64,000 nt of DNA from Epilithonimonas zeae. Its GTDB lineage: Bacteria > Bacteroidota > Bacteroidia > Flavobacteriales > Weeksellaceae. Shown here piece after piece: positions 4,923-53,740 of this stretch (within the stretch, counting starts at the first letter, position 1; each line of letters opens with the position of its first letter). Location of the stretch: NCBI RefSeq assembly GCF_900141765.1, contig NZ_FSRK01000003.1, positions 434,001-498,000 on the forward strand, read 5' to 3'. The translations under genes and the position numbers were made by a program. The notes under the pieces were generated by a model. It was not told the origin of the DNA. It saw only the letters and a list, made by a program, of their open reading frames with translations, and ran no database searches.

Positions 4923-5040
4923 CAATAATTTGGGCAGCTTTTTCCGCCTTCCGCTCCCAATCTTTTTTGCAGACGATTTCGGTTAAGTTGAACTTGATGA
5001 CACGCAAAAAAGGATTTCCGCTCAAGTCGGGCTGCAGATT
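4923..5040 (-). repeat. Dispersed structured repeat, family A, copy 1
   Basis: Read on the minus strand, the order is outer arm CTGCAGCCC, GACTTGAGCGGAAATCC, the inner stem TTTTTTGC with partner GCAAAAAAGATT (loop about 35 nt), GGGAGCGGAAGGCGGA, and outer arm GCTGCCCAAATTATT. The outer stem is GCAGC/GCTGC and the inner stem AATC plus T6GC against GCA6GATT. It sits between the divergent leuS and glycosyltransferase genes. The open frames crossing it are artefacts. Confidence 0.8.
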
Positions 5041-5079
5041 CCAGCTTCGAATCAACATTTGTCATTAACCACAATGTTT

Positions 5080-5129
5080 GTCATTCCGTAGGAATCTAAA
5101 CAAAGCTGTCGAGATTCCTACGGAATGAC
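5080..5129. repeat. Palindromic GTCATTCC repeat, copy 1
   Basis: An inverted repeat: GTCATTCCGTAGGAATCT pairs with AGATTCCTACGGAATGAC across a short spacer containing CAAAGCTGTCG. Related copies lie at 38608-38661 and 42431-42475, all intergenic. It could form a long hairpin on either strand. No gene overlaps it. I read it as a short dispersed palindromic element of the flavobacterial type rather than a gene-specific terminator, because the flanking genes diverge from it. Confidence 0.75.
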
Positions 5130-5170
5130 AAATAGTATGAAATCATAAAATAACAGTCAGTATTAGACTT

Positions 5171-5199
5171 GTCACACTGAGCGGAGTCGAAGTGTTTCG
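5171..5199 (+). repeat. GTCACACTGAGCGGAGTCG repeat, copy 1
   Basis: The sequence GTCACACTGAGCGGAGTCGA followed by AGTGTTTCG recurs in reverse orientation at 44000-44028. The internal arms CACT and AGTG allow a small hairpin. It is intergenic, upstream of the glycosyltransferase gene at 5271. No function is assigned. Confidence 0.6.
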
Positions 5200-5270
5200 T
5201 AATCAAAAAGTCTTTTATCTTTCATCTATTATCTTTTAGTCTATATCTTTATCTTTGTAAAAAATCGCAA

Positions 5271-6026
5271 GTGCCGGAAATCTCAATCATCACACCGAGT
5301 TACAATTCTTCAAAACATCTGGATGAAACCATTGCTTCTGTCCTCAATCAAACTTTCCAAGATTGGGAATGGTTGATTACAGACGATTGTTCGACAGATA
5401 ATTCGGTGGAAATTCTGGAAAAACAAAAGGATTCTCGAATCAAAATTTTTAAAGCTGAAAAAAATGGTGGCGCTGGTCACGCAAGGAATATTTCTCTGGA
5501 AAATGCGACCGGAAGATTTATCACATTTCTGGATGCTGATGATTTTTGGGAACCCACTTTCCTTGAAGAAATGGTCAATTTTATGAAATCCGAAAATGCA
5601 GAACTGGCCTATTCCACTTATTCCCGATGCGATGAAAATCTGAATCCAACAAAAATAGGAGATTACGAAGCTGATACAATTGTGACATTTAATAATCTTT
5701 TGAAAACTTGTAGATTATCACTTTTAGCGTCGATGTATGATTCCAAAAGAGTGGGGAAATTCTACTTTCCGGAAGGTACAAAACGCGAAGATCACGTGAT
5801 GTGGCTGGAACTTTTGAAGGAAATTCCGCAAGGAAAACCTCTAAGAAAGACTTTATCAAAATACCGAATGTTGCCCAACAGCGTTTCCAGAAAAAAAACA
5901 AATATTATGAAAGACCAATATTTGGTTTACAAAGATTATATGAAATTTTCAACATTGAAATCGTTGTATTATACTGCGAATTGGGCATTTAATGGTTTTA
6001 TCAAATATTCTAAAATCTTCAATTAA
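5271..6026 (+). CDS. Glycosyltransferase family 2 protein
   Basis: A 251-residue GT-A-fold enzyme. Its N-terminus is ISIITPSYNSSKHLDETIASV, with the nucleotide-binding block TDDCSTDNS near residues 40-48 and the metal-binding DADD near residues 87-90 (ITFLDADDFWEP). The start used is GTG at 5271, which places the fold immediately at the N-terminus. Its stop overlaps the next start (TAATG), so the two genes are translationally coupled. The donor sugar and acceptor cannot be read from sequence. The neighbouring Kdo transferase suggests lipopolysaccharide work. Confidence 0.85.
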   Translation: MPEISIITPSYNSSKHLDETIASVLNQTFQDWEWLITDDCSTDNSVEILEKQKDSRIKIFKAEKNGGAGHARNISLENATGRFITFLDADDFWEPTFLEEMVNFMKSENAELAYSTYSRCDENLNPTKIGDYEADTIVTFNNLLKTCRLSLLASMYDSKRVGKFYFPEGTKREDHVMWLELLKEIPQGKPLRKTLSKYRMLPNSVSRKKTNIMKDQYLVYKDYMKFSTLKSLYYTANWAFNGFIKYSKIFN

Positions 6027-6652
6027 TGGAATATTCAAAAGAATTCAAGCAGGCTTTGAGCGAGTTTTCTCCGGCAGAAAAAGATAAGTTGATTTTCCGA
6101 TTGTTGAAGAAAGATAAATTACTTTCTAAAAAACTTTATTTCGAGCTCATCGACCCAGAAACGACGGATGACAAACGAAATATGATGGAAGAAATTATCC
6201 GTGAAAGAGTTTCTGAGATTTCTAAATATGTTGGGAATCAGAAATATTTTTTGGTTTTAATCAGAAAACTGAGCGCAGAAATCACAGAACACGTCAAAAT
6301 CACAACAGATAAATTTGGTGACGTTTATCTGAATTTATTTTTAGTTAATAAAGTCCTTGAACATAACGAAAAACTGGGAAGACAGAGATTCGATGCGGTT
6401 TACAAACTTTACATTTATCTCATCAATAAAATCATCAAAGCCTTAATCCAAATCAAAAAGCTAGACGAAGATTATTGGATGGAATTTGATGAGTTACTGG
6501 AAAACCTTAATGAGAAAATCGACAACAATATTTATTTAAGCAAACTTTGTGTCAATAATAGCTTTGATTTCAATTGGCTAAAATGTGAAAATATCCCAGA
6601 CCACTTGGACTTAATCATCAAAGACATCAAAAGTCAAGGCTTCTTACGATAG
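6026..6652 (+). CDS. Uncharacterised helical protein
   Basis: A 208-residue, highly charged, apparently all-helical protein starting MEYSKEFKQALSEFSPAEKD, with no signal peptide, membrane helix or motif that I recognise. Its start overlaps the stop of the preceding glycosyltransferase by one base, so the pair is cotranscribed. Its 3' end overlaps the convergent waaA by 9 bp. The frame is complete and its composition matches its neighbours, so I take it as real. I do not assign a function. Confidence 0.75.
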   Translation: MEYSKEFKQALSEFSPAEKDKLIFRLLKKDKLLSKKLYFELIDPETTDDKRNMMEEIIRERVSEISKYVGNQKYFLVLIRKLSAEITEHVKITTDKFGDVYLNLFLVNKVLEHNEKLGRQRFDAVYKLYIYLINKIIKALIQIKKLDEDYWMEFDELLENLNEKIDNNIYLSKLCVNNSFDFNWLKCENIPDHLDLIIKDIKSQGFLR

Positions 6653-7900
6653 GATTTTATTGATAATAATTTCAGTAGAATCTGGCTGAGAATTGACAAA
6701 TTCATTTGCCTTCTCTGCCATTTCCTTTAGATAAGACTTTTCACCGATTTCAGTTTTAGAATCTTTGTCAATCAATTCCGTGATGAAAGTTGAAGCTGCA
6801 ACAAAATCATCAAAGCTCTTTGCGCCTTTTGCCGCAATTAATGTATCTGCTTCCGGATTTTTCTTGTATTGATTTCCGAAAACCACGGGAACTCCATAAA
6901 CCGCAGCTTCCAGAATATTATGTAAACCAGCCGAATGAAACCCGCCACCAACAACTGCTAAATCCGCATAAGAATACAATTTGGAAAGTTTCCCGATTGA
7001 ATCGATTATTAAAATCTGAGAATTTGAAAAATCAGGTTTCTGAGAATTTTGCACACTGCTATATAATATAGCGTTCGGAAATAAATTCTTCAAATGTGAA
7101 ACTCTGTGCAAATCGTGCGGTGCAATTACAATTTTGGTTTCAGGAAGTTTTTTCACCAAAACCTGCGCAATATCTTCTTCTGCCTGCCAACTGCTTCCAA
7201 AAACAATTAGCTTTTGATTGCTTTTAAATTCATCTATGAATTCAAGATGATTATCTCTATCCAAAAACTGCTTTACCCTGTCAAATCTTGTGTCACCGGA
7301 AACCGTAGAATTGGTCAATCCAATTTTTTTTGCCAATGCCTGAGATTTGATAGTCTGATGAAAAAACCAATCGATGTTTTGACGAAGCTGTTTTGCAAAC
7401 CATTTTCCATAGCTTTCAAAAAACAGCTGATGCTCATAAAACAGTGCGGAAATCACATAGATTTTCGTTCCTCGATTTTTTAATTCTTCTAAAAGATTGT
7501 ACCAATAATCATATTTTACAGTGAAGAAAATCTCCGTCTCGAAAGTGGAAACAAACTCTTTTATATCTTTTTTTCTATCAAAGGGCAAATAACAAACGGC
7601 ATCAGCAATCTGCTTTCTTTTCTTCACATTTTCGTAACCGGAAGGCGAGAAAAAAGTGACCAAAGTTTTATGTTCTGGGAATTGTTCTTTTAGTTTTTCG
7701 AGAACTGGAAGACCTTGCTCATACTCTCCAAGACTTGCAGCATGCATCCAAATCACTTTTTGACCTTGGATTTTTTCTTCAACAATTTTCAAAGATTCGT
7801 TTCTTCCCCTAACTCCCTTTTTTGTTTTAGAATCAAACAGGGAAAAGATTTTCATCCCAAAAATCATTAGATGGATAGAAAGATTGTATAGCGATTTCAT
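6644..7900 (-). CDS. waaA: 3-deoxy-D-manno-octulosonic acid (Kdo) transferase
   Basis: A 418-residue GT-B enzyme that transfers Kdo from CMP-Kdo to lipid A precursor at the inner membrane. Features seen: an N-terminal hydrophobic anchor (about residues 4-22), the WMHAASLGEYEQGLPVLEKL block of the WaaA N-domain, a KYDYWYNLLEEL segment, and in the C-domain LIVFGSSWQAEEDI, VIAPHDLHRV and VVGGGFHSAGLHNILEAA. The length matches the family. The gene converges on the unknown gene at 6026 and is followed 3 bp upstream by the cupin gene, which it probably shares a transcript with. Confidence 0.93.
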   Translation of the reverse strand: MKSLYNLSIHLMIFGMKIFSLFDSKTKKGVRGRNESLKIVEEKIQGQKVIWMHAASLGEYEQGLPVLEKLKEQFPEHKTLVTFFSPSGYENVKKRKQIADAVCYLPFDRKKDIKEFVSTFETEIFFTVKYDYWYNLLEELKNRGTKIYVISALFYEHQLFFESYGKWFAKQLRQNIDWFFHQTIKSQALAKKIGLTNSTVSGDTRFDRVKQFLDRDNHLEFIDEFKSNQKLIVFGSSWQAEEDIAQVLVKKLPETKIVIAPHDLHRVSHLKNLFPNAILYSSVQNSQKPDFSNSQILIIDSIGKLSKLYSYADLAVVGGGFHSAGLHNILEAAVYGVPVVFGNQYKKNPEADTLIAAKGAKSFDDFVAASTFITELIDKDSKTEIGEKSYLKEMAEKANEFVNSQPDSTEIIINKILS

Positions 7901-7903
7901 CTT

Positions 7904-8248
7904 TTATTTTTCTACTGCAAATCTATCATTATTTGTTGAAGGATTAGATATGACAAGAAATTCCAAATCGAAATCTGATTGATTTTTTATCAAATGTTTT
8001 TTACTTGGAGTAATATGAAATCCTGAATTTTCAATCACTTCGAAAACCTCTTCATCCACGATAAAAGTGGCTTTTCCTTTTAAAATAAAGAAAAACTGTT
8101 GGGCGTTTTTATGGAAATGCAATTGCTCTTGTGAATTTGGAGGCATCGTTTCCTGTTTAATAGAAAGACTTTCAGAATTTAGTAAAACCCAACTATCACA
8201 ACTCCCTCCCCAATTATAATGTTCTGTATTTTGTTTTGATTTTATCAT
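7904..8248 (-). CDS. Cupin-domain protein
   Basis: A 114-residue single cupin domain: EQLHFHKNAQQFFFILKG (metal-ligand HxH...E type) and later SGFHITPSKKHLIKN. I use the ATG at 8248 (MIKSKQNTEHYNWG). Longer frames reach back to 8356 only through a dispersed repeat, and a -7 promoter motif lies at 8266-8273, inside that extension. Cupins of this size bind a metal or small molecule; the substrate here is unknown. It ends 3 bp before waaA on the same strand. Confidence 0.8.
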   Translation of the reverse strand: MIKSKQNTEHYNWGGSCDSWVLLNSESLSIKQETMPPNSQEQLHFHKNAQQFFFILKGKATFIVDEEVFEVIENSGFHITPSKKHLIKNQSDFDLEFLVISNPSTNNDRFAVEK

Positions 8249-8265
8249 CTTTATTTTTTCTGATA

Positions 8266-8273
8266 CAAATATA
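8266..8273 (-). promoter_or_regulatory. Bacteroidetes -7 element for the cupin/waaA unit
   Basis: The minus strand reads TATATTTG, an exact TAnnTTTG match, 17 bp upstream of the cupin ATG at 8248. I see no clear TTTG at the usual -33 spacing. It argues against translation starting further upstream. Confidence 0.5.
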
Positions 8274-8330
8274 ATTATTGATGTCTCTTTGAGAAAGTTG
8301 AATTCAATTTGAATGTTGAACTTTGCGAAG

Positions 8331-8470
8331 CGCAGCCCGACTTGAGCGGAGCTCATTTTTTGCTGAGGATTCTAGTGATGGCAAAAATAGCGGGAGCGGA
8401 AGGCGGAAAAGCTGCCATAAAAAATATAATAAAACGGTTTCGACGAATGTCAAATAGCTGCCCAAATAAT
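8331..8470 (+). repeat. Dispersed structured repeat, family A, copy 2 (duplicated tail)
   Basis: Order: CGCAGCCCGACTTGAGCGGA, inner stem GCT plus CATTTTTTGC pairing with GCAAAAATAGC, then GGGAGCGGAAGGCGGAAAAG and CTGCC. The outer stem is GCAGC/GCTGC. The inner base pairs are GCT/AGC where copies 1, 3 and 4 have AATC/GATT or the like. The terminal AGCTGCC occurs twice, 46 bp apart (8410 and 8456), and only the second continues into CCAAATAATT. It lies between the divergent cupin and rpmH genes. Confidence 0.8.
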
Positions 8471-8516
8471 TGGAATAATGAAAAGTGAAAAATTAACATA
8501 AAAAAGTTTTTAAATA

Positions 8517-8547
8517 TTTGCCACTCAAAATAAAATCTCTATATTTG
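8517..8547 (+). promoter_or_regulatory. Promoter of rpmH
   Basis: TTTG at 8517-8520, a 19-bp spacer, then TATATTTG at 8540-8547: a full match to the Bacteroidetes consensus TTTG-N19-TAnnTTTG. The start codon of rpmH follows 43 bp later. Confidence 0.8.
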
Positions 8548-8590
8548 CAATCTGAAAATTTAATAGAATTACGAACTAAATATATTAGTG

Positions 8591-8749
8591 ATGAGTAAAA
8601 GAACATTCCAACCATCTGAAAGAAAAAGAAGAAACAAGCACGGTTTCCGTGAAAGAATGTCTACACCAAACGGAAGAAGAGTGTTGGCAGCTAGAAGAGC
8701 AAAAGGCAGAAAGAGCTTAACTGTTAGTGCAGCGCGCGCTAAGAGATAA
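8591..8749 (+). CDS. rpmH: 50S ribosomal protein L34
   Basis: The smallest gene here, 52 residues: it starts [20 protein letters not shown], continues [20 protein letters not shown] and ends in [11 protein letters not shown]. This is the canonical L34 sequence with the [12 protein letters not shown] signature. It is very basic, as expected for an rRNA-binding protein. It has its own strong promoter and is monocistronic here; dnaA and rnpA, its neighbours in many bacteria, are not adjacent. Confidence 0.97.
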
Positions 8750-8884
8750 TTTCTTCAAAATTATCATATACAAAGATGTCTGGATTTGGTTTCAGACATT
8801 TTTTGTTGTTAAAATTTGCCAAAAGTAGAGGACAAAAAATAAGTTTTTGCTATTTTTGAGTTTCACAACTTTCAATTTGAAATT

Positions 8885-9595
8885 ATGCCGCACAGAAATG
8901 ACCCTGGAGTCGATATTATAGATTTGAGCAGTGCCAAAATTGTTCAGAAAAACTTCACTGTCCTGAATGATGTTGACCTTCATATCAAGAAAGGAAAATT
9001 CTGCTACCTGATTGGAAAAACTGGTTCCGGAAAAAGTTCTCTTTTGAAAGTTCTTTACGGACAATTGCCTTTACAAGGCGGAAGCGGACAAGTTGCAGGT
9101 TTTGATTTGAAGAAACTGAAACAATCTGATGTTCCAAACCTAAGAAGAAAATTAGGAATTGTGTTTCAGGATTTCCAACTTTTATCGGATAGAAATATCG
9201 AGAAGAATCTTCTTTTTGTCCTACAAGCAACCGGCTGGAAAGACAAACACAAAATGGAAGCGAGAATTGATGAAGTTCTATCCAGCGTTGGAATGAAAAC
9301 TAAAAAGCACAAAATGCCACACCAACTTTCCGGTGGCGAGCAACAACGTGCTGCAATCGCAAGAGCGCTTCTGAATCACCCTGAATTAATTCTTGCAGAC
9401 GAGCCAACAGGAAATCTTGACCCGGAAACGTCTAACGATATTATGACACTTCTTAAAAATCTGGCGGAAGAAAACCATTGCGCTGTTGTAATGGCAACGC
9501 ACGATTACCATATGATTCAGAATTATCCTGGCGAAGCCATCCGATGCGAAAACGGGCAGGTTTCTGTTTTGGATACAGCAGAATTGTTTGAATAA
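8885..9595 (+). CDS. ftsE: FtsE-type ABC transporter ATP-binding protein
   Basis: A 236-residue single ABC ATPase: Walker A GKTGSGKSS (about residues 44-52), Q-loop in GIVFQDFQLL, signature LSGGEQQRAAIARALL, Walker B LILADEPTGNLDP and H-loop MATHDYHM. The FtsE/LolD class is suggested by its length and by the DxxNLRRKLG-like and QDFQLLSDRNIEKN segments. In FtsEX it would couple to a membrane partner that regulates cell-wall hydrolases at division. No ftsX lies beside it, so the assignment to FtsE rather than a related exporter ATPase is probable, not certain. Confidence 0.75.
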   Translation: MPHRNDPGVDIIDLSSAKIVQKNFTVLNDVDLHIKKGKFCYLIGKTGSGKSSLLKVLYGQLPLQGGSGQVAGFDLKKLKQSDVPNLRRKLGIVFQDFQLLSDRNIEKNLLFVLQATGWKDKHKMEARIDEVLSSVGMKTKKHKMPHQLSGGEQQRAAIARALLNHPELILADEPTGNLDPETSNDIMTLLKNLAEENHCAVVMATHDYHMIQNYPGEAIRCENGQVSVLDTAELFE

Positions 9596-9617
9596 GAAAA
9601 TTATTAGTTATAGATAG

Positions 9618-9650
9618 AAAAAGCTCTTTGAAATTTCAGAGAGCTTTTTT
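9618..9650. terminator. Bidirectional terminator hairpin
   Basis: AAAAAGCTCTTTGAAA pairs with TTTCAGAGAGCTTTTTT across almost no loop. It follows ftsE by about 22 bp, and the last codons of the convergent methyltransferase gene lie within it, so it can serve both. Confidence 0.75.
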
Positions 9651-10340
9651 GTTGAATAGATGGAAGTCTTTTGTCAGCTCAAGATATTCATCGGAATAAA
9701 CTCTTGGCGATTTTTCGATAACAAAATTTTCTTCTTTCGTTTCTGATTGTTGGAATGAATATTCTAAAACTACTCTTTTGGGTTCAGCAGTTTCGATTCC
9801 TTTGATGATAACTTTTCTTTTGAGAAACAGATTATTCTCTCTACAAATTTGAGTGAATTGCTTATCTGAATCAATAGGAATAATAACCGAAAACAAACCT
9901 TCATCAGAAAGTAATTGTGAAGCTTTCTGAATTAAATCAGAGAAATCCAATTCTAATCTTTGTCTTGCCAGAATATCTTTCTCAGAATTGTTAATCTCAA
10001 AATATGGCGGATTTGAAATGATTAAATCAAATTTTTCTTCAGTTTCAAACCTTTTAAAATCCTGAAGCTGACTTTTGATTCTTTCAGAAAAAGGAGAATT
10101 GGAGAAATTATTTTGAGAAATTTTGACAGCTTCAGAGTTGATATCGATTGCTAAGATATTTGCATTTGGATTTCTCTGAGCTAACATTAATGAAATAATT
10201 CCTGTTCCAGTTCCTACTTCCAGAATTCGTTTTGCTTGATGAATATCAGATAAAATCCCCAGCAAAACCGCATCTGTTCCCACTCGGAAAACATCAGAAC
10301 TTTGCTGAATTGAAAATTTTTGAAATTGGAAATCCTTCAT
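9636..10340 (-). CDS. trmN6: TrmN6-type tRNA1(Val) (adenine37-N6)-methyltransferase
   Basis: A 234-residue class I SAM methyltransferase. It begins MKDFQFQKFSIQQSSDVFRV, with motif I LEVGTGTGIISLMLAQ and the catalytic N6-adenine motif NPPYFE, as in E. coli YfiC/TrmN. FRVGTDAVLLG near the N-terminus is also typical. I chose the ATG at 10340; ten extra upstream codons (MRNVGFHYYN) have no family support. Expected role: N6-methylation of A37 in tRNA-Val. A PrmC-like N6-glutamine methylase is excluded by its shorter length and the YFE context, but the substrate is inferred. Confidence 0.8.
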   Translation of the reverse strand: MKDFQFQKFSIQQSSDVFRVGTDAVLLGILSDIHQAKRILEVGTGTGIISLMLAQRNPNANILAIDINSEAVKISQNNFSNSPFSERIKSQLQDFKRFETEEKFDLIISNPPYFEINNSEKDILARQRLELDFSDLIQKASQLLSDEGLFSVIIPIDSDKQFTQICRENNLFLKRKVIIKGIETAEPKRVVLEYSFQQSETKEENFVIEKSPRVYSDEYLELTKDFHLFNKKAL

Positions 10341-10399
10341 ATTATAATAATGAAAACCGACATTTCGCACCTTCGAAGCTACAAAATTCGATTTGTCGT

Positions 10400-10440
10400 T
10401 TTTCTACCAATATTTCGCGACTTCGTCGCTTTACCACTTT
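10400..10440 (+). repeat. CTACCAATAT-hairpin repeat, copy 1
   Basis: TTTCTACCAATATTTCG followed by the small hairpin GCGACTTCGTCGC and TTTACCACTTT. A related block (CTACCAATATGTCGAGACTTCGTCTC) occurs at 53758-53850. It lies in the gap between the methyltransferase and the sensor kinase genes. Confidence 0.55.
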
Positions 10441-10445
10441 GAAAT

Positions 10446-11900
10446 CTATAAATTAGAAGGCATTGAGATGGTGAATGTCGCTCCTTTATCTGGCTCGGAA
10501 ACTACAGTTATCGTTCCGTTATAATCTTCAACCATTCGTTTTACCATCGTAAGACCTATTCCCATTCCACTGCTTTTGGAAGTGAAATTCGGGTCGAAAA
10601 TCTTCGTTATTTTATCTTCAGAAATCCCTACTCCATTATCTTCGACCGTGATTCTAATTCGTTTTTCAATTTTTTCCAAATCTACATTGATGACGGATTT
10701 TCTATCATCTGCTTTTGCCTGACTTGCGTTGGTCACTAGATTGGTGATGATTCTCGAAAGATAATCTCTGTCAATTTTCATCGGAATATTATCGTGATTG
10801 GCGTGAACAAATATATTTTCATCACTGAAAATCGTCAACACATTTTTCACTTCTTTATTCAAAGAAATTTCTTCATCATTTTTTTGAGGCAACTGCGCAA
10901 ATTCAGAAAACGCACTCGCTACTCTACTGATAACATCAATTTGCCCAATGATAATTTCACTAAGATTTTTAACTTTAGTAGCATTATCTGGGGCGTTCGG
11001 GTCAAATTTTCTCTCGAAATTTTGCATCATCAACTTCATTGGCGTCAACGGATTTTTCACCTCGTGAGCCACTTGCTTCGCCATTTCTTGCCAAGCTGAT
11101 TGCTTCTCGATATAACTGAGACGTTCGCGTTGGTCAGCAATTTCCGCAATCATTTTATTATAAGCCTTAACCAAAGCATTTAGCTCATCGTTTTTATAAT
11201 ATTTGATGGGATTGAGGTTCTTATCAAACAAGTTGATTTTACTAATCATCGAAGTAAATCGGATAATCGCTTCCGTCAAATTATTCGAAATAATCCAGCT
11301 AAACCAAATACTGAACAATATGATAAGGAGATTGACACCAATGATGTAAATAAAATACTCTTTGAAAACCTCCATATAAGCACTCTCGTTATGATAATAC
11401 GGAAAATATACATAAGCAATATTTTCCAACATATTATTTTTCAATACCATATATGAGGAAACAATCGTCGCTTTAAGTTTTTCGTCGTAAGCTTTATCAT
11501 CGTATTGTTTACCGTTTTTCTTGATGGCCTTTATAACATCAGACGGCATTTTCTTTTGGGCAACAAGATTCGGGTCTTTGTTAGACAAAAGATAATTACC
11601 ATTTAAATCATATATAATAATGTCGTGCTTGTTGATATCAGCAATTTCGTAGATTTCGTTTTCAAGAATTTTAGGAATATCATAGGTTTCTACCTGAGAA
11701 TGGCTGAGCGCATAATCCAAAGAAGACATAAGAGCTTCGGACTTGTTTTGCATATCCTGTTGGCTTTGCTTCTTCGCATTGTCTCTCAAAATCACATAAG
11801 ACAAAGTAGCCGAAGCGATGACACTTAGGAAACAAATAGCGAGAAATCCAATAAAAACCCTGTTTCTTAACCGGTAACCTTTATAATCATTTAATGGCAT
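10446..11900 (-). CDS. NtrY-like sensor histidine kinase (orphan)
   Basis: A 484-residue membrane kinase: a TM helix near residues 12-35, an extracytoplasmic sensor region to about 175, a second TM (about 180-205), a HAMP-like linker, then the H-box AHEVKNPLTPMKLMMQNF with the phospho-accepting His. The ATPase domain has N-box LVTNASQA, EDNGVGIS, FTSKSSGMGIGLTM and GATFTISMP. The H-box wording is that of NtrY-class kinases. The start is ATG 11900, with TACATTTG (a -7 motif) at 11910-11917, so the leader is very short. No response regulator is adjacent, so its partner and signal are unknown. Confidence 0.85.
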   Translation of the reverse strand: MPLNDYKGYRLRNRVFIGFLAICFLSVIASATLSYVILRDNAKKQSQQDMQNKSEALMSSLDYALSHSQVETYDIPKILENEIYEIADINKHDIIIYDLNGNYLLSNKDPNLVAQKKMPSDVIKAIKKNGKQYDDKAYDEKLKATIVSSYMVLKNNMLENIAYVYFPYYHNESAYMEVFKEYFIYIIGVNLLIILFSIWFSWIISNNLTEAIIRFTSMISKINLFDKNLNPIKYYKNDELNALVKAYNKMIAEIADQRERLSYIEKQSAWQEMAKQVAHEVKNPLTPMKLMMQNFERKFDPNAPDNATKVKNLSEIIIGQIDVISRVASAFSEFAQLPQKNDEEISLNKEVKNVLTIFSDENIFVHANHDNIPMKIDRDYLSRIITNLVTNASQAKADDRKSVINVDLEKIEKRIRITVEDNGVGISEDKITKIFDPNFTSKSSGMGIGLTMVKRMVEDYNGTITVVSEPDKGATFTISMPSNL

Positions 11901-11952
11901 TTTGCTTTTCAAATGTAGTTTTTCGTTTTTGGAGTTTATGCAATTGCCAATT

Positions 11953-12567
11953 CTACTGATATTTTTGCACCATATTAGACAATGGCGATTTCAAAAGTTT
12001 CGCAACATATTTTCCGATGATGTCAAATTCCAAATTCACAACATCGCCAATTTTCAAATGTTTCATATTCGTAAACTCCCAAGTGTACGGAATTATTGCC
12101 ACAGAAAACTGGTTCGTTTCGCTTTCAGCAACCGTAAGACTCGTTCCGTTCAGCGTGATAGAACCTTGCGGAACTGTTCTATACTCGTTGGTTTCCTTGT
12201 AAGAAACTGTAATGAGATAACTTCCATTCTGGTCTTCGATACTTTCAACGACTCCGGTTTTGTCCACGTGACCTTGCACAATATGACCATCCAATCTACC
12301 TTCGAATTTCAAACAACGTTCCAAATTCACTTCCGTTCCAACATTCCACGCACCAAGATTCGTTTTTTCAAGCGTTTCATTGATGGCCGTCACCTTATAA
12401 GAATCACTATTGATTTCCACAACTGTCAGGCAGCAGCCGTTGTGTGCCAGACTTTGGTCGATTTTCAATTCCTGAGTAAAAGGACAACTCAACACAAAAT
12501 CAATATTCCCTTCATTTCTATCGATTTTCTCAACCTTTCCGGTCGCTTCTATTATTCCTGTAAACAT
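11953..12567 (-). CDS. ribE: Riboflavin synthase (alpha subunit)
   Basis: A 204-residue protein with the two lumazine-binding barrel repeats. The first begins MFTGIIEATGKVEKI and contains GCCLTVVEI; the second begins near residue 97 with GRLDGHIVQGHVDKTG and contains GTSLTVAE. It dismutates two 6,7-dimethyl-8-ribityllumazines to riboflavin plus the pyrimidinedione. The start MFTGIIE is invariant in the family. It lies 52 bp upstream of the kinase gene on the same strand. I see no FMN riboswitch in the 216 bp upstream, which holds a family B repeat. Confidence 0.95.
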   Translation of the reverse strand: MFTGIIEATGKVEKIDRNEGNIDFVLSCPFTQELKIDQSLAHNGCCLTVVEINSDSYKVTAINETLEKTNLGAWNVGTEVNLERCLKFEGRLDGHIVQGHVDKTGVVESIEDQNGSYLITVSYKETNEYRTVPQGSITLNGTSLTVAESETNQFSVAIIPYTWEFTNMKHLKIGDVVNLEFDIIGKYVAKLLKSPLSNMVQKYQ

Positions 12568-12590
12568 TCTTTTGGTTTTATTGATTTTTT

Positions 12591-12671
12591 CAGGAGCTTA
12601 ATCCCGCTTTCCACTATATCTTTTTCTTTTTTAGCAAAAAAAGAAAAAGGATGTCGTTGCAATCGGGGCTA
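12591..12671 (-). repeat. Dispersed structured repeat, family B, copy 1
   Basis: On the minus strand: AGCCCCGATTGCAACGACAT, then CC and a T-run arm, a loop around GCT, an A-run arm ending AAAAAGAT, then ATAGTGGAAAGCGGGATTAA and GCTCCTG. Pairings are AGC/GCT and CCCG/CGGG at the base and TTTTTCTTTTTT with AAAAAAGAAAAA inside. The overall plan is the same as family A. It lies between the divergent ribE and pdxA genes. Confidence 0.75.
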
Positions 12672-12783
12672 TAAATATTGCATATTTTACTAACTGCTTA
12701 GTATAATATGTAAACAAATAGTTATAAAAACAACCTAAAAAACCTAAATTTGTAAAATTCTTTTAAATGTCAAAGATAAACAA

Positions 12784-13872
12784 ATGAGCTCCAAACATCA
12801 TAAAATCAGAGTAGGAATTTCAATCGGCGATTTCAACGGAATCGGACCCGAGATTATTCTAAAATCTCTGAAAGATAAAAGCATAACAGATTTTTTCACG
12901 CCGGTTATTTTTGGTTCGGGTAAACTATTCACTTATCAGAAAAATATTTTCAAGCTTCAGACCAACTTCAATTACATCAATTCTGCAAAAGAAGCACAGT
13001 CTGGGAAAATCAATATGGTGAATCTTACCAAAGAAAATAGCAATGTAGAATTCGGTGTTCCAACGGAAGAATCCACAAAAATGGCGATTGATTCTCTGGA
13101 ATCTGCTACCCAAGCTCTTCTGAATAATGAAGTAGATGTTATCGTAACCGCTCCTATTAATAAGGACGAAATGATGAAATATGGTTTCGCTCACGCTGGG
13201 CACACTGGTTATTTCGAAGAAAAGGCAGGCAAAAAAGCGGTAATGTTTATGGTAACCAACAATTTGAAAGTGGCTGTTTCTACACATCACATTCCTGTTG
13301 CTGAGATTGCACAGAATATCACCAAAGAGAAATTGAAAAAGCAAATCACACAATTGGTGAAAACTTTGAAAGAAGATTTCTGTGTAGAAAAACCAAAAAT
13401 TGCAGTCCTAGGGCTCAATCCACACGCTGGCGATGGCGGTGTAATCGGTAAAGAAGAAATAGAGATTATAGAACCTGCGATAAAAGAACTCTTTAATAAT
13501 GGAACTTTAGCTTTTGGACCGTATCCGGCAGACAGTTTTTTCCAGCCTGAAAAATATAAAGCTTTCGATGCTGTTTTGGCAATGTATCACGACCAAGGTC
13601 TGGCACCTTTCAAAACAATTGCTTATGAAGAGGGCGTAAATTACTCAGCAGGATTGCCTTTCATCAGAACATCTCCAGACCACGGCGTTGCTTATGATAT
13701 TGCGGGGAAAAATATGGCGGATGAGACTTCTTTTTCCGAAGCAATTTTTACAGCCATCCATATTTTTAAAAACAGAGAAGAATACCACGATTTGATGAGC
13801 AATCGTCTTCGTCCGAAAGCTTCTCACGCTAATAATGGGATAGACGAAGACCTTCCGCTTGAAAATAGCTAG
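12784..13872 (+). CDS. pdxA: 4-hydroxythreonine-4-phosphate dehydrogenase
   Basis: A 362-residue enzyme that oxidises 4-phosphohydroxy-threonine in the DXP-dependent pyridoxal phosphate pathway. Seen: ISIGDFNGIGPEIILKSL at the N-terminus, VTAPINKDEM, the metal site around GHTGYFEEKAG, VLGLNPHAGDGGVIGKEE, the MYHDQGLAPFKTI metal-ligand block and SPDHGVAYDIAGKN. The length is slightly above the usual 330. TAAATTTG at 12745-12752 is a plausible -7 element. It is followed by DUF177, rpmF, accB and accC on the same strand, a known Bacteroidetes gene order. Confidence 0.95.
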   Translation: MSSKHHKIRVGISIGDFNGIGPEIILKSLKDKSITDFFTPVIFGSGKLFTYQKNIFKLQTNFNYINSAKEAQSGKINMVNLTKENSNVEFGVPTEESTKMAIDSLESATQALLNNEVDVIVTAPINKDEMMKYGFAHAGHTGYFEEKAGKKAVMFMVTNNLKVAVSTHHIPVAEIAQNITKEKLKKQITQLVKTLKEDFCVEKPKIAVLGLNPHAGDGGVIGKEEIEIIEPAIKELFNNGTLAFGPYPADSFFQPEKYKAFDAVLAMYHDQGLAPFKTIAYEEGVNYSAGLPFIRTSPDHGVAYDIAGKNMADETSFSEAIFTAIHIFKNREEYHDLMSNRLRPKASHANNGIDEDLPLENS

Positions 13873-13930
13873 ACAAAAAATCAGTTTTTGAGGAGTAAAT
13901 TTTTGCAAGTCAAGTATTTCCAAAAAAGAT

Positions 13931-13961
13931 TTTGTTATTTAAAAAAAATAAATTATTTTTG
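13931..13961 (+). promoter_or_regulatory. Promoter of the DUF177-rpmF unit
   Basis: TTTG at 13931-13934, a 19-bp spacer and TATTTTTG at 13954-13961: an exact consensus promoter. The ATG at 13974 is only 12 bp beyond the -7 element, so the mRNA should have a very short leader. This rules out an in-frame ATG at 13932. Confidence 0.75.
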
Positions 13962-13973
13962 CAAACCGTTTTT

Positions 13974-14501
13974 ATGGACAGAATTAGAAACTATGACGTT
14001 GCCTTTTTAGGCTTAAAACCGGGTAAACACGATTTCATATTTGAAATTAATCAAGAGTTCTTTGATTTATTTGAGACTGAGCAGGAATTTTTTAATCCAA
14101 AAATCAATGCTAATGTTCTTTTGGACAAGCATACAACTTTTTTGGAGTTCTTCATTAATGTTTCAGGAACCGTTCAATTGATTTGCGACATTAGCAATGA
14201 TGAATTTTCTGAAAATATTGAGAATGATTTGAAAATTCTTGTAAAATTTGGAGAAGAATATGATGACAGTGATGAAGATGTAATTACCATCAATAAAAAA
14301 GATGGCGAATTCAACCTTGCCAACCTTATATATGAAGCGGTTGTTTTATCAATTCCGATGAAAAAACTGGCGCCATCTGTAAGAGACAATGATGAATATC
14401 AAAAAATATTAGACCAATACAGTCCAAAAATAGTCGAAGAGGAAAAGGAAAGCACAGACCCAAGATGGGAAGCTTTGAAAAAATTGAAAGATAACAATTA
14501 A
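13974..14501 (+). CDS. DUF177 (YceD-type) large-subunit accumulation protein
   Basis: A 175-residue acidic protein starting MDRIRNYDVAFLGLKPGKHD. The family's mid-region is visible (FINVSGTVQLICDISNDEF, normally CxxC-bearing; here a single Cys is visible), followed by IYEAVVLSIPMKK and a C-terminal DPRWEALKKLK, the hallmark ending. DUF177/YceD proteins are linked to 23S rRNA and large-subunit maturation and nearly always precede rpmF, as here (43 bp). The start is fixed by the promoter at 13931-13961. Confidence 0.88.
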   Translation: MDRIRNYDVAFLGLKPGKHDFIFEINQEFFDLFETEQEFFNPKINANVLLDKHTTFLEFFINVSGTVQLICDISNDEFSENIENDLKILVKFGEEYDDSDEDVITINKKDGEFNLANLIYEAVVLSIPMKKLAPSVRDNDEYQKILDQYSPKIVEEEKESTDPRWEALKKLKDNN

Positions 14502-14544
14502 GCAATAACAATATAATTCGTAAGAATTTTAAAAAGTACTAACA

Positions 14545-14748
14545 ATGGCACATCCTAAAAGAAGACAGTCGTCTACAAGAAGAGATAAAAGAAGAACTCA
14601 CTACAAAGCTGTAGTTCCTCAATTGGCAAAAGACGCTACGTCTGGAGAAATGCACTTATACCACAGAGCACACTGGCATGAAGGAAAACTTTATTACAGA
14701 GGAAAAGTTGTATTAGAGAAAACCGTAGAAACTACAGAAGAAAACTAA
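14545..14748 (+). CDS. rpmF: 50S ribosomal protein L32
   Basis: A 67-residue basic protein starting [20 protein letters not shown], the L32 signature, then [17 protein letters not shown]. It has no zinc-binding CxxC pairs, so it is the C-minus form expected not to depend on zinc. It is cotranscribed with DUF177 and followed by a strong terminator. Confidence 0.96.
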
Positions 14749-14779
14749 GATCTATCTTTGATAATCTTATACTTAGCAT

Positions 14780-14820: not shown

Positions 14821-14853
14821 TATATTTGGCGTTCAAAACAATTTAAAAATTTT

Positions 14854-15330: not shown

Positions 15331-15418
15331 TATAATTGATAAATTATAAGTGATAAGTGATTATTTAGTTGATGCACTTTATCTTAATTTTTAATTCTTA
15401 ATTTTTAATTATAAAAGG

Positions 15419-18130: not shown

Positions 18131-18131
18131 A

Positions 18132-29464: not shown

Positions 29465-29637
29465 AATCTGCGCCCTGACTTATCTTCAATTTAATATTTA
29501 ATTTATTTGAATCGATGAACCACTTCGTTAGGCTTGAGCGGAAATCCTTTTTTGCTTATACTTTGAGTTCTATTTAATCTGAAATCTTCGTGCAAAAAGA
29601 TAGGGAGCGGAAGGCGGAAATAGGCGCCCAAATAATT
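29465..29637 (+). repeat. Dispersed structured repeat, family A, copy 3 (interrupted, covarying)
   Basis: Outer arms are CTGCGCCC and GGCGCCCAAATAATT, pairing GCGCC/GGCGC where other copies have GCAGC/GCTGC: two compensatory base-pair changes. The inner stem is ATCCTTTTTTGC with GCAAAAAGAT, and the G-rich arm is GGGAGCGGAAGGCGGAAA. About 50 bp are inserted in the 5' arm between GACTT and TTGAGCGG. It fills the gap between the convergent accA and rpsB genes, together with the accA terminator. Confidence 0.78.
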
Positions 29638-32861: not shown

Positions 32862-32880
32862 GTTTTGTACATTGAATTGC

Positions 32881-32967
32881 TGCAGCCCGACTTGAGCGGA
32901 AATGCTTTTTGTGTAGCGCAGCGGAACAAAAAGATTGGGAGCGGAAGGCGGATAAGCTGCCCAAAAT
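32881..32967 (+). repeat. Dispersed structured repeat, family A, copy 4
   Basis: The most compact copy: TGCAGCCCGACTTGAGCGGA, inner stem ATGCTTTTTGT with ACAAAAAGAT (loop about 16 nt, GTAGCGCAGCGGA), GGGAGCGGAAGGCGGATAA, GCTGCCCAAAATA. Intergenic, between convergent genes, and directly after the terminator at 32833-32861. Confidence 0.8.
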
Positions 32968-32971
32968 ATAT

Positions 32972-44084: not shown

Positions 44085-44202
44085 TTATAAATTCAAACTC
44101 CATAATGGCTGAGATTGACTTCGTCGAACCACTTCGTTGGGTTTCTTTCAGAATGACAAAATTGTGTTTTGTAGACGAAGTTAAAATCGGTAGACTAAAT
44201 CC

Positions 44203-44320
44203 ATAGCCCTGATGGGAGCTGCATCCTTTTTTGTCATTGCGGGGAAAATTTCTAAAGATTGCTTCACTTCGTTCGCAATGACAAAAAAGATATAGTGGAC
44301 AGCAGGTTCCCGGCTTCTGA
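44203..44320 (+). repeat. Dispersed structured repeat, family B, copy 2 (nested palindrome)
   Basis: ATAGCCCTGATGGGAGCTGC, ATCCTTTTTT, an inserted palindrome-like block (GTCATTGCGGGG ... TTCGCAATGAC), then AAAAAAGATATAGTGGACAG, CAGG and CCCGGCTTCTGA. Outer pairs are AGCC/GGCT and CCTG/CAGG, the latter replacing CCCG/CGGG of copy 1: a compensatory change. The loop of the element has been replaced by a different repeat. Confidence 0.75.
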
Positions 44321-44502
44321 AAAAAGTTGTAGAGTTGTAGAGTTTGAGAATTCGTGAATTTTTAATCTCTATTTCTCTCAAACTCTCCCACCCAACTTAA
44401 CCTGCCAAAAATCATTCAGATAGACAAAATCATAAATTCAATTAATTCTAAATTAATTTTAAAATCCGTAATTTTGTAGCCACTTAAAGAATAATAAATT
44501 TT

Positions 44503-50448: not shown

Positions 50449-50556
50449 ATTATTTACTTCCTTGATATTTATAAAAAAATCATAAAGTTTTCGCAAAAAA
50501 ATAAAGATGCCTTTTGGAAAGACATCTTTATTTCAACATATTAAATAAATATTGGA

Positions 50557-51117
50557 TTAATGAGCATCTACAGTAATATCAACATCTGTTTCACCTCCGG
50601 TAGTTTGACCTAGCTGATTAGCTGCAGAAGGATAATTTTGATTAACTGTAGCTGGACCGTGAACCAACTTGATATTCATTTTTCCGGTTTCCTGTGTAGA
50701 ATTAATGGTCCATTCTGTTCTAAGACCTAATTTTTGTCCATCTGTTCTTACAATATCATTAGCAGCTCTCACGACAACAATATCCGCATTAGCAGGATTG
50801 AATGTAATAAAATGATGATCCTTCTCTTCCTCTATCTCATCCGAAGAGTGGTAATGATCATCGTGCTTGATTTGGAAATCCAAAACAGCAGAATAAGTAT
50901 CGCCAGCGTGCAAATGCAAATGCCCATCTGCAACACCAGAAATTACACTAATAGTTTGAACATCACTAGCATTAGCTTTATTAGTTAATGTCAAAACTAC
51001 TTTTCCGATTTCATCGTGCTCGTGTACGTCTTCTGGAACATCATCATCGCTGTTTCTACAAGACAAGATAAAAAAGGCTGCTAAAAGTGCTAGTGTAATA
51101 TTTAATAATTTTTTCAT
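50557..51117 (-). CDS. His-rich lipoprotein of a probable metal-uptake locus
   Basis: A 186-residue lipoprotein: a signal peptide with lipobox Cys (LLAAFFILSC, Cys20), then several metal-ligand-like clusters: EDVHEHDEIGK, DGHLHLHAGD, KHDDHYHSSDEIEEEKDHHF and a C-terminal DAH. Such clusters suggest binding of zinc, copper or nickel. It is 28 bp downstream of a TonB-dependent receptor on the same strand and so likely a cell-surface or periplasmic accessory. The metal is inferred, not shown. Confidence 0.75.
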   Translation of the reverse strand: MKKLLNITLALLAAFFILSCRNSDDDVPEDVHEHDEIGKVVLTLTNKANASDVQTISVISGVADGHLHLHAGDTYSAVLDFQIKHDDHYHSSDEIEEEKDHHFITFNPANADIVVVRAANDIVRTDGQKLGLRTEWTINSTQETGKMNIKLVHGPATVNQNYPSAANQLGQTTGGETDVDITVDAH

Positions 51118-51145
51118 TTCGATTTAAATTTTAAGTTTGTAATAA

Positions 51146-53527
51146 TTAAAAATTGTATTTCAGAGTTACCACGAAGTTTCTTCCCGGCTCGTACATATAA
51201 TATCTAAGCCTGTTCAGATATTCTCGATACTCTGTGTTAAATAAGTTGTTGATTCTGAAATTGACATTCAGATGTTTGAATAAGTTGGCGCCCAATGTCG
51301 CATTGAAACTTGTATAGGCTGCAGGCGGCGTACTGAAATCGACAATCTCACTTCTCTCCACACCATCTTTTATAAAAGTAACAGGAAGATTGGCAATCGG
51401 ATAACGTTTCTGCCTGAACACATTGTCATTTTCTAATGTTATATAGAATTGAGACGGCTTGTGCAGCATAATTTCAATTGAGTTTCTGTTTCTCGCCGGC
51501 ATCATCAGAATCAATGGCTGATTGTTCGTTAGGTCATCGCCTCTCAAAACGCTGTAACCTGATTTCCATTTCAGATTATCCAAAATTGACAGTTCTGCAT
51601 CCATATCCACACCTAGCACTCTTGCTTTAACTTGCTGATAAGATTCTACAGGGAAAACGCCTCTGTTGGTGTTCAAAACACCCGTCGGAATTTGATTAAT
51701 AAAACTATCAGAATACATCAGATAAGGATTCGCTTCGATATGAAGACCTTTCAAGACATCAAACTGACCTGCCAAAGAAAGATTCACGTTGTTAATCGTT
51801 TCTTTTTTGATACTCAGATTCCCTTCCTCCATTATGGCTGCAGAGTGATGTAATCCGTCCGCAAAAAGTTCCGCAGGATTCGGCGTTCTTTCCGCTCTCG
51901 AAAGATTGAGTTTGAATTCAAAATCTTGAGTTGGTTTATAATTCAGACCGACATTGGCAGAGAGGTTATGATAATCCAGAATCGGTCTTGTCAGAATTCG
52001 GCTTCCGGATTCGCTTACAAAGAATTCCGAAAATTGGTTGGCATAGTTATCATTCCATTTATCAGAATCATAATATTTGTACGCATCATATCGGCTGAAG
52101 TCATATCTCACTGCAGCTTCTGCATTCAATTTTGAACTGAATCTATATTTGAAAATTGAAAATGCGCCGGCGTCATATCGGTAATAATCCGGAATCAGAC
52201 GTCTTGCTTTGGTTGCTGGGTCCGGGAAATTATCCTGAAAATTTCCTGAAATTCCACTTTCTAAACTCCAGTTCAAACGCTCAATCAAATGAACCAAACT
52301 GGCAGAATGCGTAATTAACCTCAAGTCCATTGATGGAACATTAAATAATTCTCCTCGTCTGATATCAAATTCCTTTCTTCGGTTATACTGAAAGCTGTAT
52401 TGAAAAGTCAGTTTCCCAAAATCGGCGAAACGTTTGTAAGCGGAAACTTTAGCAATATGATGCGCAACTTCCTGCTTAGGATTATCAATATCGTAACTGA
52501 AGTTATCCAAAAAATAAGGTTGCCCAAAATTCACAGCATTGTAGAAATCCTCCGGGCTCGACAAATGCGCCCCTTTGTAAATCCCGAATTCCTGATTGGT
52601 TCCGCTGTAAGAAACATCAAACCCTTGTAGAAAACTATGTTTCCCGAAAGAGAAATTAAAAGAATTAAACTCCTGACCCGTATTCTGCAATGTATGATGT
52701 GGAATATATTGGTCACCTGTTTTTCTGTAAGTTCCACCAGCTTTTATAAACCAATCATTTTCCCAGGATTTAAGGACTGTAGCGCCTAACTCGCCTCCTC
52801 TTCCATTAGAAATTCCGGAAAGTCTAATGTTGCCCATTATCGTATCTTTCTTGGGTAAAATAGCTGGCTCCAAAACGACAACACCGCCAACACCTTCATT
52901 GCCATATTTCAGAGCGGAAGCACCTTTTACAACATCGATGTGTTCAAAATCGTTGACATCCACATTGGGTGCGTGTTCTACTCCCCATTCTTGCTCAGCC
53001 ATTTTCACACCGTTGTTCAGAATAGAAATTCGGCTTCCGTACAAGCCACGGATAACAGGTTTTGTGATATTATTCCCCGTTTTCAAAGCTGAAACACCTG
53101 TGATTCTGGATAATAAATTTCCCAGATTTTCCGTGGAATTCCTCTCAATTTCTGTTTTGTCCAGCGTACTCATAATCACAGAACTTTTGGTTTTGTGACT
53201 GCCGTGGAGTGTAACGCCTTGTATCTCGTTGGAATGGTGCTCCAATGTGATGGCCAAATGCAAGTCTCTGTCGACTTTTACATTTTCAGTATAATCGTCG
53301 CAGAGAGGATGCTTTGCGACCAGTTGATATGACCCTGCAGAGATGCTACTGAATGAGAACCTTCCTTTTTTGTCGGTTTTCGTGGTAGAATTTCCTAACG
53401 TTACAACAGCATTTTCCAACATTGTTTTGTCATGAAAATCCTGAACAGTTCCCTCTACAGAATAGCTCTGCGCAGTTACTAATGAAAGCCCGAAAAAGAC
53501 CAACATCAGATTTATAATGTGTTTCAT
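51146..53527 (-). CDS. TonB-dependent outer-membrane receptor (probable metal or metallophore)
   Basis: A 793-residue receptor: signal peptide (MKHIINLMLVFFGLSLVTAQ), a carboxypeptidase-regulatory-like N-domain (about 22-95), plug domain (EIERNSTENLGNLLSRITGV, KPVIRGLYGSRISILNNGVK, VEHAPNVDVNDFEHIDVVKG, about 120-235), then a 22-strand-type barrel ending in a Phe (YMYEPGRNFVVTLKYNF), the sorting residue for outer-membrane barrels. His pairs occur in loops (HHSNE, HHTLQ). The neighbouring His-rich lipoprotein points to metal uptake. Energised by ExbB/ExbD with TonB. Confidence 0.88.
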   Translation of the reverse strand: MKHIINLMLVFFGLSLVTAQSYSVEGTVQDFHDKTMLENAVVTLGNSTTKTDKKGRFSFSSISAGSYQLVAKHPLCDDYTENVKVDRDLHLAITLEHHSNEIQGVTLHGSHKTKSSVIMSTLDKTEIERNSTENLGNLLSRITGVSALKTGNNITKPVIRGLYGSRISILNNGVKMAEQEWGVEHAPNVDVNDFEHIDVVKGASALKYGNEGVGGVVVLEPAILPKKDTIMGNIRLSGISNGRGGELGATVLKSWENDWFIKAGGTYRKTGDQYIPHHTLQNTGQEFNSFNFSFGKHSFLQGFDVSYSGTNQEFGIYKGAHLSSPEDFYNAVNFGQPYFLDNFSYDIDNPKQEVAHHIAKVSAYKRFADFGKLTFQYSFQYNRRKEFDIRRGELFNVPSMDLRLITHSASLVHLIERLNWSLESGISGNFQDNFPDPATKARRLIPDYYRYDAGAFSIFKYRFSSKLNAEAAVRYDFSRYDAYKYYDSDKWNDNYANQFSEFFVSESGSRILTRPILDYHNLSANVGLNYKPTQDFEFKLNLSRAERTPNPAELFADGLHHSAAIMEEGNLSIKKETINNVNLSLAGQFDVLKGLHIEANPYLMYSDSFINQIPTGVLNTNRGVFPVESYQQVKARVLGVDMDAELSILDNLKWKSGYSVLRGDDLTNNQPLILMMPARNRNSIEIMLHKPSQFYITLENDNVFRQKRYPIANLPVTFIKDGVERSEIVDFSTPPAAYTSFNATLGANLFKHLNVNFRINNLFNTEYREYLNRLRYYMYEPGRNFVVTLKYNF

Positions 53528-53651
53528 TTTTGTAAAATGTGTAATATGAGGTAGATGCTAGAATTTAGATTAGAGATATTAAAACTCAATTCTAAAGTCC
53601 ATCTTTTTTATTGAATTAATTATTGACGCAATTTTGGAGCGTTGAATCACA

Positions 53652-53740
53652 CGCAGCCCGACCTGAACGGAGCTCTTTTTCTTTTTTAGCAAAAAAAGAA
53701 AAAAGCGGGAGTGGAGGGCGGATAAAGCTGCCCAAATAAT
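53652..53740 (+). repeat. Dispersed structured repeat, family A, copy 5
   Basis: CGCAGCCCGACCTGAACGGA, inner stem GCTCTTTTTCTTTTTT with AAAAAAAGAAAAAAGC around AGC, GGGAGTGGAGGGCGGATAA, AGCTGCCCAAATAATT. The long T/A stem is similar to that of family B copy 1, a possible bridge between the families. It lies between the TonB receptor gene and the small gene at 53895. Confidence 0.78.

Follow-up and report, generated by a model that had tools for sequence, protein, structure and literature searches.

The window analysed here, a stretch of 64,000 nucleotides (nt) from the genome of Epilithonimonas zeae (contig NZ_FSRK01000003.1, positions 434,001 to 498,000 of the forward strand), contains seven scattered intergenic hairpins, which are copies of the known Flavo-1 family (Rfam RF01705). 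They fall into two classes, of which class B is the canonical Flavo-1 and class A is a variant lying mostly under the Rfam cut-off. Flavo-1 has been catalogued as RNA for 16 years. The reading preferred here, with slightly less than even confidence, is that these elements are replication-polarised, non-coding DNA hairpins resembling repetitive extragenic palindromic (REP) sequences, which act or spread at the level of DNA and are not RNA genes. Their orientation along the replichores, the use of every type of gap between genes and the preference for the antisense position are difficult to reconcile with an RNA gene. The family itself is already known, and what is added in this analysis is the replichore polarity, the conservation of positions, a mismatch that is both kept and reversed, and the exchange of blocks between copies. 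The accessible text of PMC2864571, PMC9723704 and PMC9029176 mentions no function, fixed positions, replication orientation or block exchange of Flavo-1, supplements and subscription papers being outside this search.

All seven copies had been placed by a first-pass annotation, and each is present at its position and on its strand. The same annotation knew of no named family matching them; the Rfam covariance model, in fact, matches both class B copies and A1 over the cut-off of 42 bits (scores in Table 1), with A5 and A4 below it and A2 and A3 absent from the listing for the window at E ≤ 5. Two further covariance models have been built, R1 from 34 E. zeae copies of class A and R2 from 27 copies of class B. 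Within the window, R1 matches all five A copies and B1, and R2 matches B1, B2 and four A copies, A3 being the exception. The description of two families with one fold is borne out genome-wide, where each model detects the other class, so that families A and B are variants of one kind.

The search of the E. zeae genome with RF01705 listed 120 matches at E ≤ 1, 61 of them at or over the cut-off, and R1 found at least 125 at E ≤ 0.01. The union of both, after removal of one chance match (C1:1458312), amounts to at least 167 copies. The family is present in all 23 genomes of the genus, with at least 44-117 RF01705 matches each at E ≤ 1e-4 and at least 38-145 R1 matches each at E ≤ 1e-3. Beyond the genus the distribution is patchy: an RF01705 match has been obtained for 71 of 196 Flavobacteriales genomes, and 22 or more matches per genome occur mainly in the family of E. 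zeae and in a single genus outside it. These copy numbers are lower bounds, as the best 130-150 of about 650-4800 candidates were scored per genome (the best 22 in the Flavobacteriales survey). Two regions of E. zeae contig C1, 1.475-1.84 Mb and 1.98-2.21 Mb, hold no copy among the matches listed, while the mean density predicts several.

The copies, read side by side, follow a single plan: from the outside inwards, they have an outer stem, CCG or CCCG and its partner, a purine-purine mismatch, two pairs, a 3x3 loop, two more pairs, another small loop, ATC or AATC and its partner, a T-run facing an A-run, and a free loop. The stems covary far beyond chance. Cells changed on both sides of a pair number 29 in the 34 E. 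zeae copies of class A (5.2 ± 2.0 in shuffles) and 53 in the 27 copies of class B (15.5 ± 4.0); the corresponding values for relatives are 151 (46.8 shuffled) in 58 class A copies and 66 (21.8 shuffled) in 28 class B copies, their alignments being fitted to the R1/R2 models and hence biased towards paired changes. None of 500 shuffles reached the observed count in any of the four sets, and in a control with the partner slid by 1-3 columns, 0-22 such cells were left. Pairs with a change on both sides were matched in class B by 15 (E. zeae) and 9 (relatives) of 500 shuffles. A count of further pair types did not rise above its control, being reached by 78 (class A) and 481 (class B) of 500 shuffles for E. 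zeae copies, and by 196 and 500, respectively, for relatives. The folding energies of single copies are weak (z from -0.1 to -3.8 over ten strands) and uninformative; for A1, the predicted single-copy fold differs from the one supported by covariation.

The purine-purine mismatch is the most telling part of the fold. It is kept in 195 of 196 elements, as A·G in 167, reversed to G·A in 22, and as A·A or G·G in three each, the last element having an indel; a Watson-Crick pair was found in none. In two of the three G·G rows (A3 of the window and L103) an insert replaces the 5' outer arm. The first 3x3 loop, in a pattern-free count, reads GNA x GNA in 43/44 E. zeae and 27/28 relative copies of class B, and TGA x GGA in 61/66 and 58/58 copies of class A, respectively. 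The mismatch and loop counts cover, for E. zeae, the top-scoring 66 of 101 rows in class A and 44 of 119 in class B and, for relatives, all 58 class A and 28 class B rows at E ≤ 1e-12.

The fold is under selection. This had been argued in the first-pass annotation from paired changes at a few positions, among which the outer-stem swap from GCAGC/GCTGC to GCGCC/GGCGC in A3 and the class B swap from CCCG/CGGG to CCTG/CAGG in B2 are real. The inner-stem pairing AATC/GATT, assigned there to copies 1 and 3, does not apply to A3, which reads AATC/GATA with one mismatch; A4, with AATG/GATT, likewise has one broken pair (G-G). The argument itself stands as far as the stems covary beyond the shuffled and slid controls, and it needs correction in that the paired changes are not all independent compensations. 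The B2 site has recurring outer arms, AGCCCTGATGG and GGACAGCAGGTTCCCGGC or near forms of them, around an inner part that is one of several whole stem-loops, e.g. ACGGCATCC/GATATAGTGG or GTGGAAATCC/GATTGCAACGG, both sides of which change together. The inner stems at the A1 and A3 sites vary in the same manner, between AATC/GATT and GCTC/AGC. Since whole inner stem-loops differ as blocks between species, exchange probably makes part of the paired changes, and we read these block differences as gene conversion among copies or as hairpin template switching. Block exchange is also a caution of more general use, because covariation in a high-copy family may partly come from recombination.

If such processes were carried to their end, Flavo-1 could be regarded as functionless fossils, in which template switching restores the palindromes and gene conversion among at least 100 copies keeps the arms alike. 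The swapping of inner stem-loops as blocks at orthologous sites would suit this explanation, as would the patchy distribution and the creation and maintenance of hairpins by template switching, which is reported in the available part of PMC8794818. However, template switching should make mismatches into pairs, and the mismatch has been kept. The outer arm of B2, moreover, is preserved at its site while being unlike most other copies, although gene conversion of whole elements would erase it, and B1 is retained in every one of the 17 loci in which its site is reached. The kept and reversed purine mismatch is an argument for selection that neither gene conversion nor template switching explains; selection on the fold, mismatch included, gives the better account, and the fossil explanation appears improbable.

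As a tendency, the G-rich strand of the elements is found opposite the leading strand and in antisense to the neighbouring genes. Genes were called by a simple codon-score method, and one of 119 E. zeae elements, lying inside a called gene, was excluded. The remaining 118 occupy 23 divergent, 18 convergent and 77 tandem gaps, as compared with 72 divergent, 37 convergent and 179 tandem gaps among the 288 reference gaps of at least 150 nt in the same loci, the element-holding gaps included. In 56 of the 77 tandem gaps the G-rich strand runs antisense to the flanking genes. With GC skew, and not dnaA, serving as the proxy for replication, the G-rich strand is opposite the leading strand in 83/118 elements (p 1e-5), and with gene bias as the proxy in 80/118. 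Gaps of the convergent and divergent types, in which gene direction cancels out, show the tendency as well: 28/41 by GC skew (p 0.03) and 27/41 by gene bias (p 0.06). On the sister chromosome G022, available as a single contig, 95 of 127 R1 matches agree with a two-arc orientation (arc 0.96 to 2.76 Mb), and 93 agree with equal arcs (0.79 to 2.76 Mb); no shuffle out of 500 reached 95, the best giving 88. The sign of GC skew agrees with these arcs at 17 of 20 places sampled afterwards, and dnaA is found at the start of the G022 record, not at an arc end.

The positions of the copies are conserved across the genus. Among Epilithonimonas-type loci reaching the respective site, A1 is present in 11/17, A2 in 14/17 (one match being partial) and B1 in 17/17; the same two genes flank A1 and B1 in each case, and A2 always lies between kdtA and the ATPase gene, at a variable distance from kdtA. 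Of 20 relatives, 17 have A3 and 10 have A5, invariably between the same genes, and 13 have B2, upstream of apbC in all 13, with the other neighbour confirmed in nine loci and not found in four. The 62 Chryseobacterium/Kaistella-type loci at the A1/A2/B1 sites, four of which are too short to span all three, gave no R1 or R2 match at E ≤ 0.01; RF01705 nonetheless matches genomes of other genera in the family. Identity within the sets from one site is 65-80% in the arms, 29-54% in the loops and 37-74% in the flanks, the B2 values including two rows from other sites (L289 and a second L271 row) that the count of 13 leaves out. A4 differs from the others: among the 20 relatives' loci it is found in the sister G022 only (L263 is short of the site and L262 ends near it), and of the 12 aligned relatives lacking it, four have a simple short gap and the others hold sequence other than Flavo-1. 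This copy is probably a recent gain. The copies are thus mostly old, and new ones seem to arise.

Two further differences between E. zeae and G022 have been noted. The G022 orthologue (L307) of the E. zeae element at L105:4001-4087 carries a 57-nt AT-rich insert in the 5' arm, which is, judging from the two orthologues, a recent nested insertion. At L271:15875-16784, the G022 chromosome carries additional sequence that includes an open frame and a class B element whose outer arm is of the B2 type; the window (42396-42492) has a short hairpin repeat in its place.

The chief alternative is that Flavo-1 is a structured RNA, as catalogued, that is, a small RNA (sRNA) or a domain of a leader or untranslated region, with the G-rich strand transcribed and acting by its fold. 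Strong covariation and conserved non-canonical pairs are typical of RNA, and in the accessible text of the respective sources Flavo-1 is given as a candidate RNA (PMC2864571) and ranked among the most abundant sRNA families (PMC9029176). On the other side, most tandem gaps carry the element with its foldable strand antisense to the flanking genes, and A5 is antisense to its neighbour. The 5' flanks are weakly conserved, and no promoter box was recognised in them by eye. The RF01705 score shows no difference with the strand transcribed by the neighbours (p 0.84 and 0.57; the smaller groups comprise 8 and 10 copies), and no function is common to the annotated neighbours, which are those of the seven copies in the window. 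In the transcriptome of F. psychrophilum, according to the part of PMC9723704 available, Flavo-1 matches are sense or antisense to transcribed regions, and many lie in none.

Several observations weigh against the DNA-level reading, some of them directly in favour of RNA. In 16/17 loci B1 precedes the start of ribE, in sense, by 16-23 nt (63 nt in the remaining one), and in 11/11 loci A1 precedes leuS, also in sense, by 80-112 nt, a placement expected of RNA leader elements, although simple inheritance also yields a constant distance to a gene. Core pairs on the G-rich strand include 29 G·U as against 12 A·C (p 0.01); this is a weak strand test, which reverses in class A relatives alone (5 G·U, 8 A·C), whereas the E. 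zeae copies by themselves gave a stronger-looking excess. Unpaired columns of E. zeae class A, with 10 C-to-T and 19 G-to-A changes, reveal no C-to-T bias behind the G·U excess. Sense placement occurs in 21 of the 77 tandem gaps, and the polarity partly follows gene direction: the element is antisense in 39/44 cases (39 to 5) where tandem genes run with the replication proxy and in 17/33 (17 to 16) where they run against it, so that gene direction and replication direction seem to matter about equally. Filled and empty A4 sites, when aligned, display no clear target duplication and no sharp border, AT-rich sequence blurring the borders, and the Y1 and RAYT (REP-associated tyrosine transposase) searches of the E. 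zeae genome yielded no protein that moves or binds Flavo-1. Finally, IS200/IS605 elements insert on the lagging-strand template. The G-rich strand does not lie on that template, so that the active strand under this mechanism would be the C-rich one.

Taken together, the antisense placement, the replichore polarity, the orientation-independent scores, the lack of a recognised promoter and the F. psychrophilum transcriptome favour DNA over RNA, and the RNA explanation is considered unlikely. Single copies such as B1 may have been taken up as RNA leaders. If B1-like copies are leaders, ribE and leuS offer a ready test of the RNA explanation. Were B1 part of a messenger RNA (mRNA), the ribosome-binding region of ribE would border the element.

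Transcription termination, bidirectional or of the Rho type, has been examined as another role. The 3' end of elements facing a stop codon is at a median distance of 26 nt in class A and 41 nt in class B, and the antisense strand of the element is C-rich. Divergent gaps are nevertheless used by 23/118 elements, against 72/288 such gaps in the reference; the A3 and A4 gaps carry separate terminator-like hairpins, and the consensus lacks a T-run after the whole hairpin on either strand, both judged by eye. The earlier statement that the elements are not simply terminators is therefore sustained, and on the gap types and the separate hairpins terminator identity has been rejected, its probability being close to nil. 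A scan of window positions 1-20000 gave 13 terminator-like sites, with 12.2 in shuffles, including one 5-pair stem inside A2.

The possibility that Flavo-1 represents the REP sequences of a RAYT (TnpA-REP) transposase, which the first-pass annotation had proposed to check, found little support. Y1 transposase genes do occur in 21/23 genomes of the genus, and in the available text of PMC6006769 Bacteroidetes RAYTs of subclass 2.6 are said to have atypical flanking hairpins and their REPs to lack the GT[AG]G foot as well. The Flavo-1 elements also have no such 5' foot, the stem foot starting with GCAGC in class A and TAGCC in class B. In the E. zeae genome, however, there is no match to Y1_Tnp (PF01797) at E ≤ 1e-3 and none to a subclass 2.6-like Y1 protein at E ≤ 1e-5. 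The genome G001 also lacks a Y1_Tnp match, and yet the two genomes hold at least 106 (E. zeae) and 88 (G001) Flavo-1 copies by RF01705 at E ≤ 1e-4. Among 37 Y1-type loci of relatives, which are part of the Y1 matches in the genus (20 with flanks of 2 kb and 17 of 1.5 kb, searched with Rfam and R1/R2), Flavo-1 is nearby in one (L241), where the gene has its own flanking palindrome. Most relatives' Y1 genes examined resemble class 1.2 of PMC6006769 by a motif read by eye. In G010 the subclass 2.6-like gene is flanked by an inverted pair of another kind, CCCCGATGTCGCGGATTTGCAATCCGTG (L232, about 1780-1813 and 2457-2489), which shares CCCCGAT and GCGGA with Flavo-1 and is a candidate atypical REP. 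A RAYT/REP origin is rejected for the E. zeae genome, for which this explanation is largely refuted, and it is very unlikely overall.

As a separate observation, matches to Acido-Lenti-1 (RF01687) just under the cut-off adjoin class 1.2-like tnpA genes (L220:2382-2426 and L224:1779-1824), a hint that the Acido-Lenti-1 "RNA" may be a transposase-end hairpin.

According to the DNA-level reading, the polarity could arise if new copies enter single-stranded DNA at replication forks or, alternatively, if copies are purged when their foldable strand is the lagging-strand template or mRNA. The conserved mismatches would then reflect recognition of the folded G-rich strand by a protein or by the replication machinery, and gene conversion or hairpin template switching would exchange the inner blocks between the copies, of which there are 100 or more. 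A bolder and rather doubtful extension sees Flavo-1 as a chromosomal system of single-stranded DNA hairpins, with at least 100 long-lived, replichore-oriented sites per genome and a factor reading the purine mismatches, in which site-specific outer stems would enclose exchangeable inner stem-loops and the elements would serve as a landing pad for other small repeats. If the elements do act at the DNA level, many Rfam-based non-coding RNA annotations in Flavobacteriia are misnamed, and Flavo-1 offers a way into the study of replication or chromosome organisation in that class.

Table 1. Flavo-1 copies in the window and the insert in A3, with covariance-model scores and genomic setting
Feature	Coordinates	Strand	Class and scores	Setting
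A1	4925..5037	-	class A; R1 96.3 bits, RF01705 42.6 bits	divergent gap with leuS and a glycosyltransferase gene on either side; in sense, about 110 nt ahead of leuS
A2	8330..8424	+	class A; R1 78.6 bits	between a cupin gene (kdtA beyond the cupin gene) and an ABC-transporter ATPase gene
B1	12584..12674	-	class B (canonical Flavo-1); RF01705 76.7 bits, R2 93.7 bits	flanked by the genes ribE (riboflavin synthase) and pdxA; in sense, just ahead of ribE
A3	29465..29636	+	class A; R1 54.4 bits over 29523-29636; outer stem GCGCC/GGCGC	between accA and rpsB; 5' arm split by a 51-nt insert
Insert in A3 5' arm	29482..29532	+		51 nt; second small dispersed repeat ending GAACCACTTCGTTAGG
A4	32880..32969	+	class A; R1 89.9 bits, RF01705 30.4 bits	beside a terminator-like hairpin after a DUF3667 gene
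B2	44201..44326	+	class B; RF01705 55.4 bits, R2 64.9 bits	upstream of an apbC-type P-loop NTPase gene; outer arm CCCTGATGG / GGACAGCAGGTTCCCGGC specific to the site
A5	53651..53740	+	class A, GCTC inner stem; R1 93.8 bits, RF01705 36.1 bits	antisense to a TonB-dependent receptor gene and upstream of it

Other small repeats have been found around the elements. The module ending GAACCACTTCGTTAGG occurs in the window at 44126-44141 as well as in A3, and in loci L082, L103, L091, L093, L127, L134, L268, L279, L285 and L300. It is inserted after GATT in the 3' arms of Flavo-1 and also inside another dispersed hairpin repeat, and a longer form of it is present in Flavo-1 5' arms; target duplication was not seen at the insertions of the module. 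Its count is 11 in 934 kb of E. zeae loci and 20 in the relatives' loci scanned. A dispersed hairpin of the type GTCATTCCGTAGGAATCT...AGATTCCTACGGAATGAC is located at window positions 5069-5141, 38606-38663 and 42431-42475 and in many flanks of E. zeae elements, standing upstream of several Flavo-1 copies. The first two of these window hairpins give microRNA-like matches below the Rfam cut-offs.

Compared with known systems, the window elements are closest to Flavo-1 (RF01705) itself, with which they have sequence, fold plan and taxon in common; class B passes the cut-off, whereas class A differs by a GC outer stem of 5 bp, a 3x4 second loop and another 3' end. Like REP sequences and REPINs (REP doublets forming hairpins) with their RAYTs, Flavo-1 elements are short, numerous, intergenic and imperfectly palindromic, but they lack the GT[AG]G foot, a cognate transposase detected in the genome and, in 36 of the 37 relatives' loci, an association with the transposase flanks. 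With IS200/IS605 they share a strand-specific hairpin, an orientation tied to replication (a tendency, by the GC-skew proxy) and, at A4, the lack of a clear target duplication; they differ in having no gene, defined ends or target, and the folded strand is opposite to the one expected for that family. Miniature inverted-repeat transposable elements (MITEs) include RUP, ERIC and Correia elements. Flavo-1 resembles these as non-coding, dispersed elements of about 100 nt gained at single sites, but shows no recognised terminal inverted repeat of a known transposase and no clear target duplication, and its positions are fixed in the long term. Integron attC sites fold from a single strand, have unpaired bases that are conserved and carry a variable loop at the tip, and in these features, on a comparison by anatomy only, Flavo-1 is like them.

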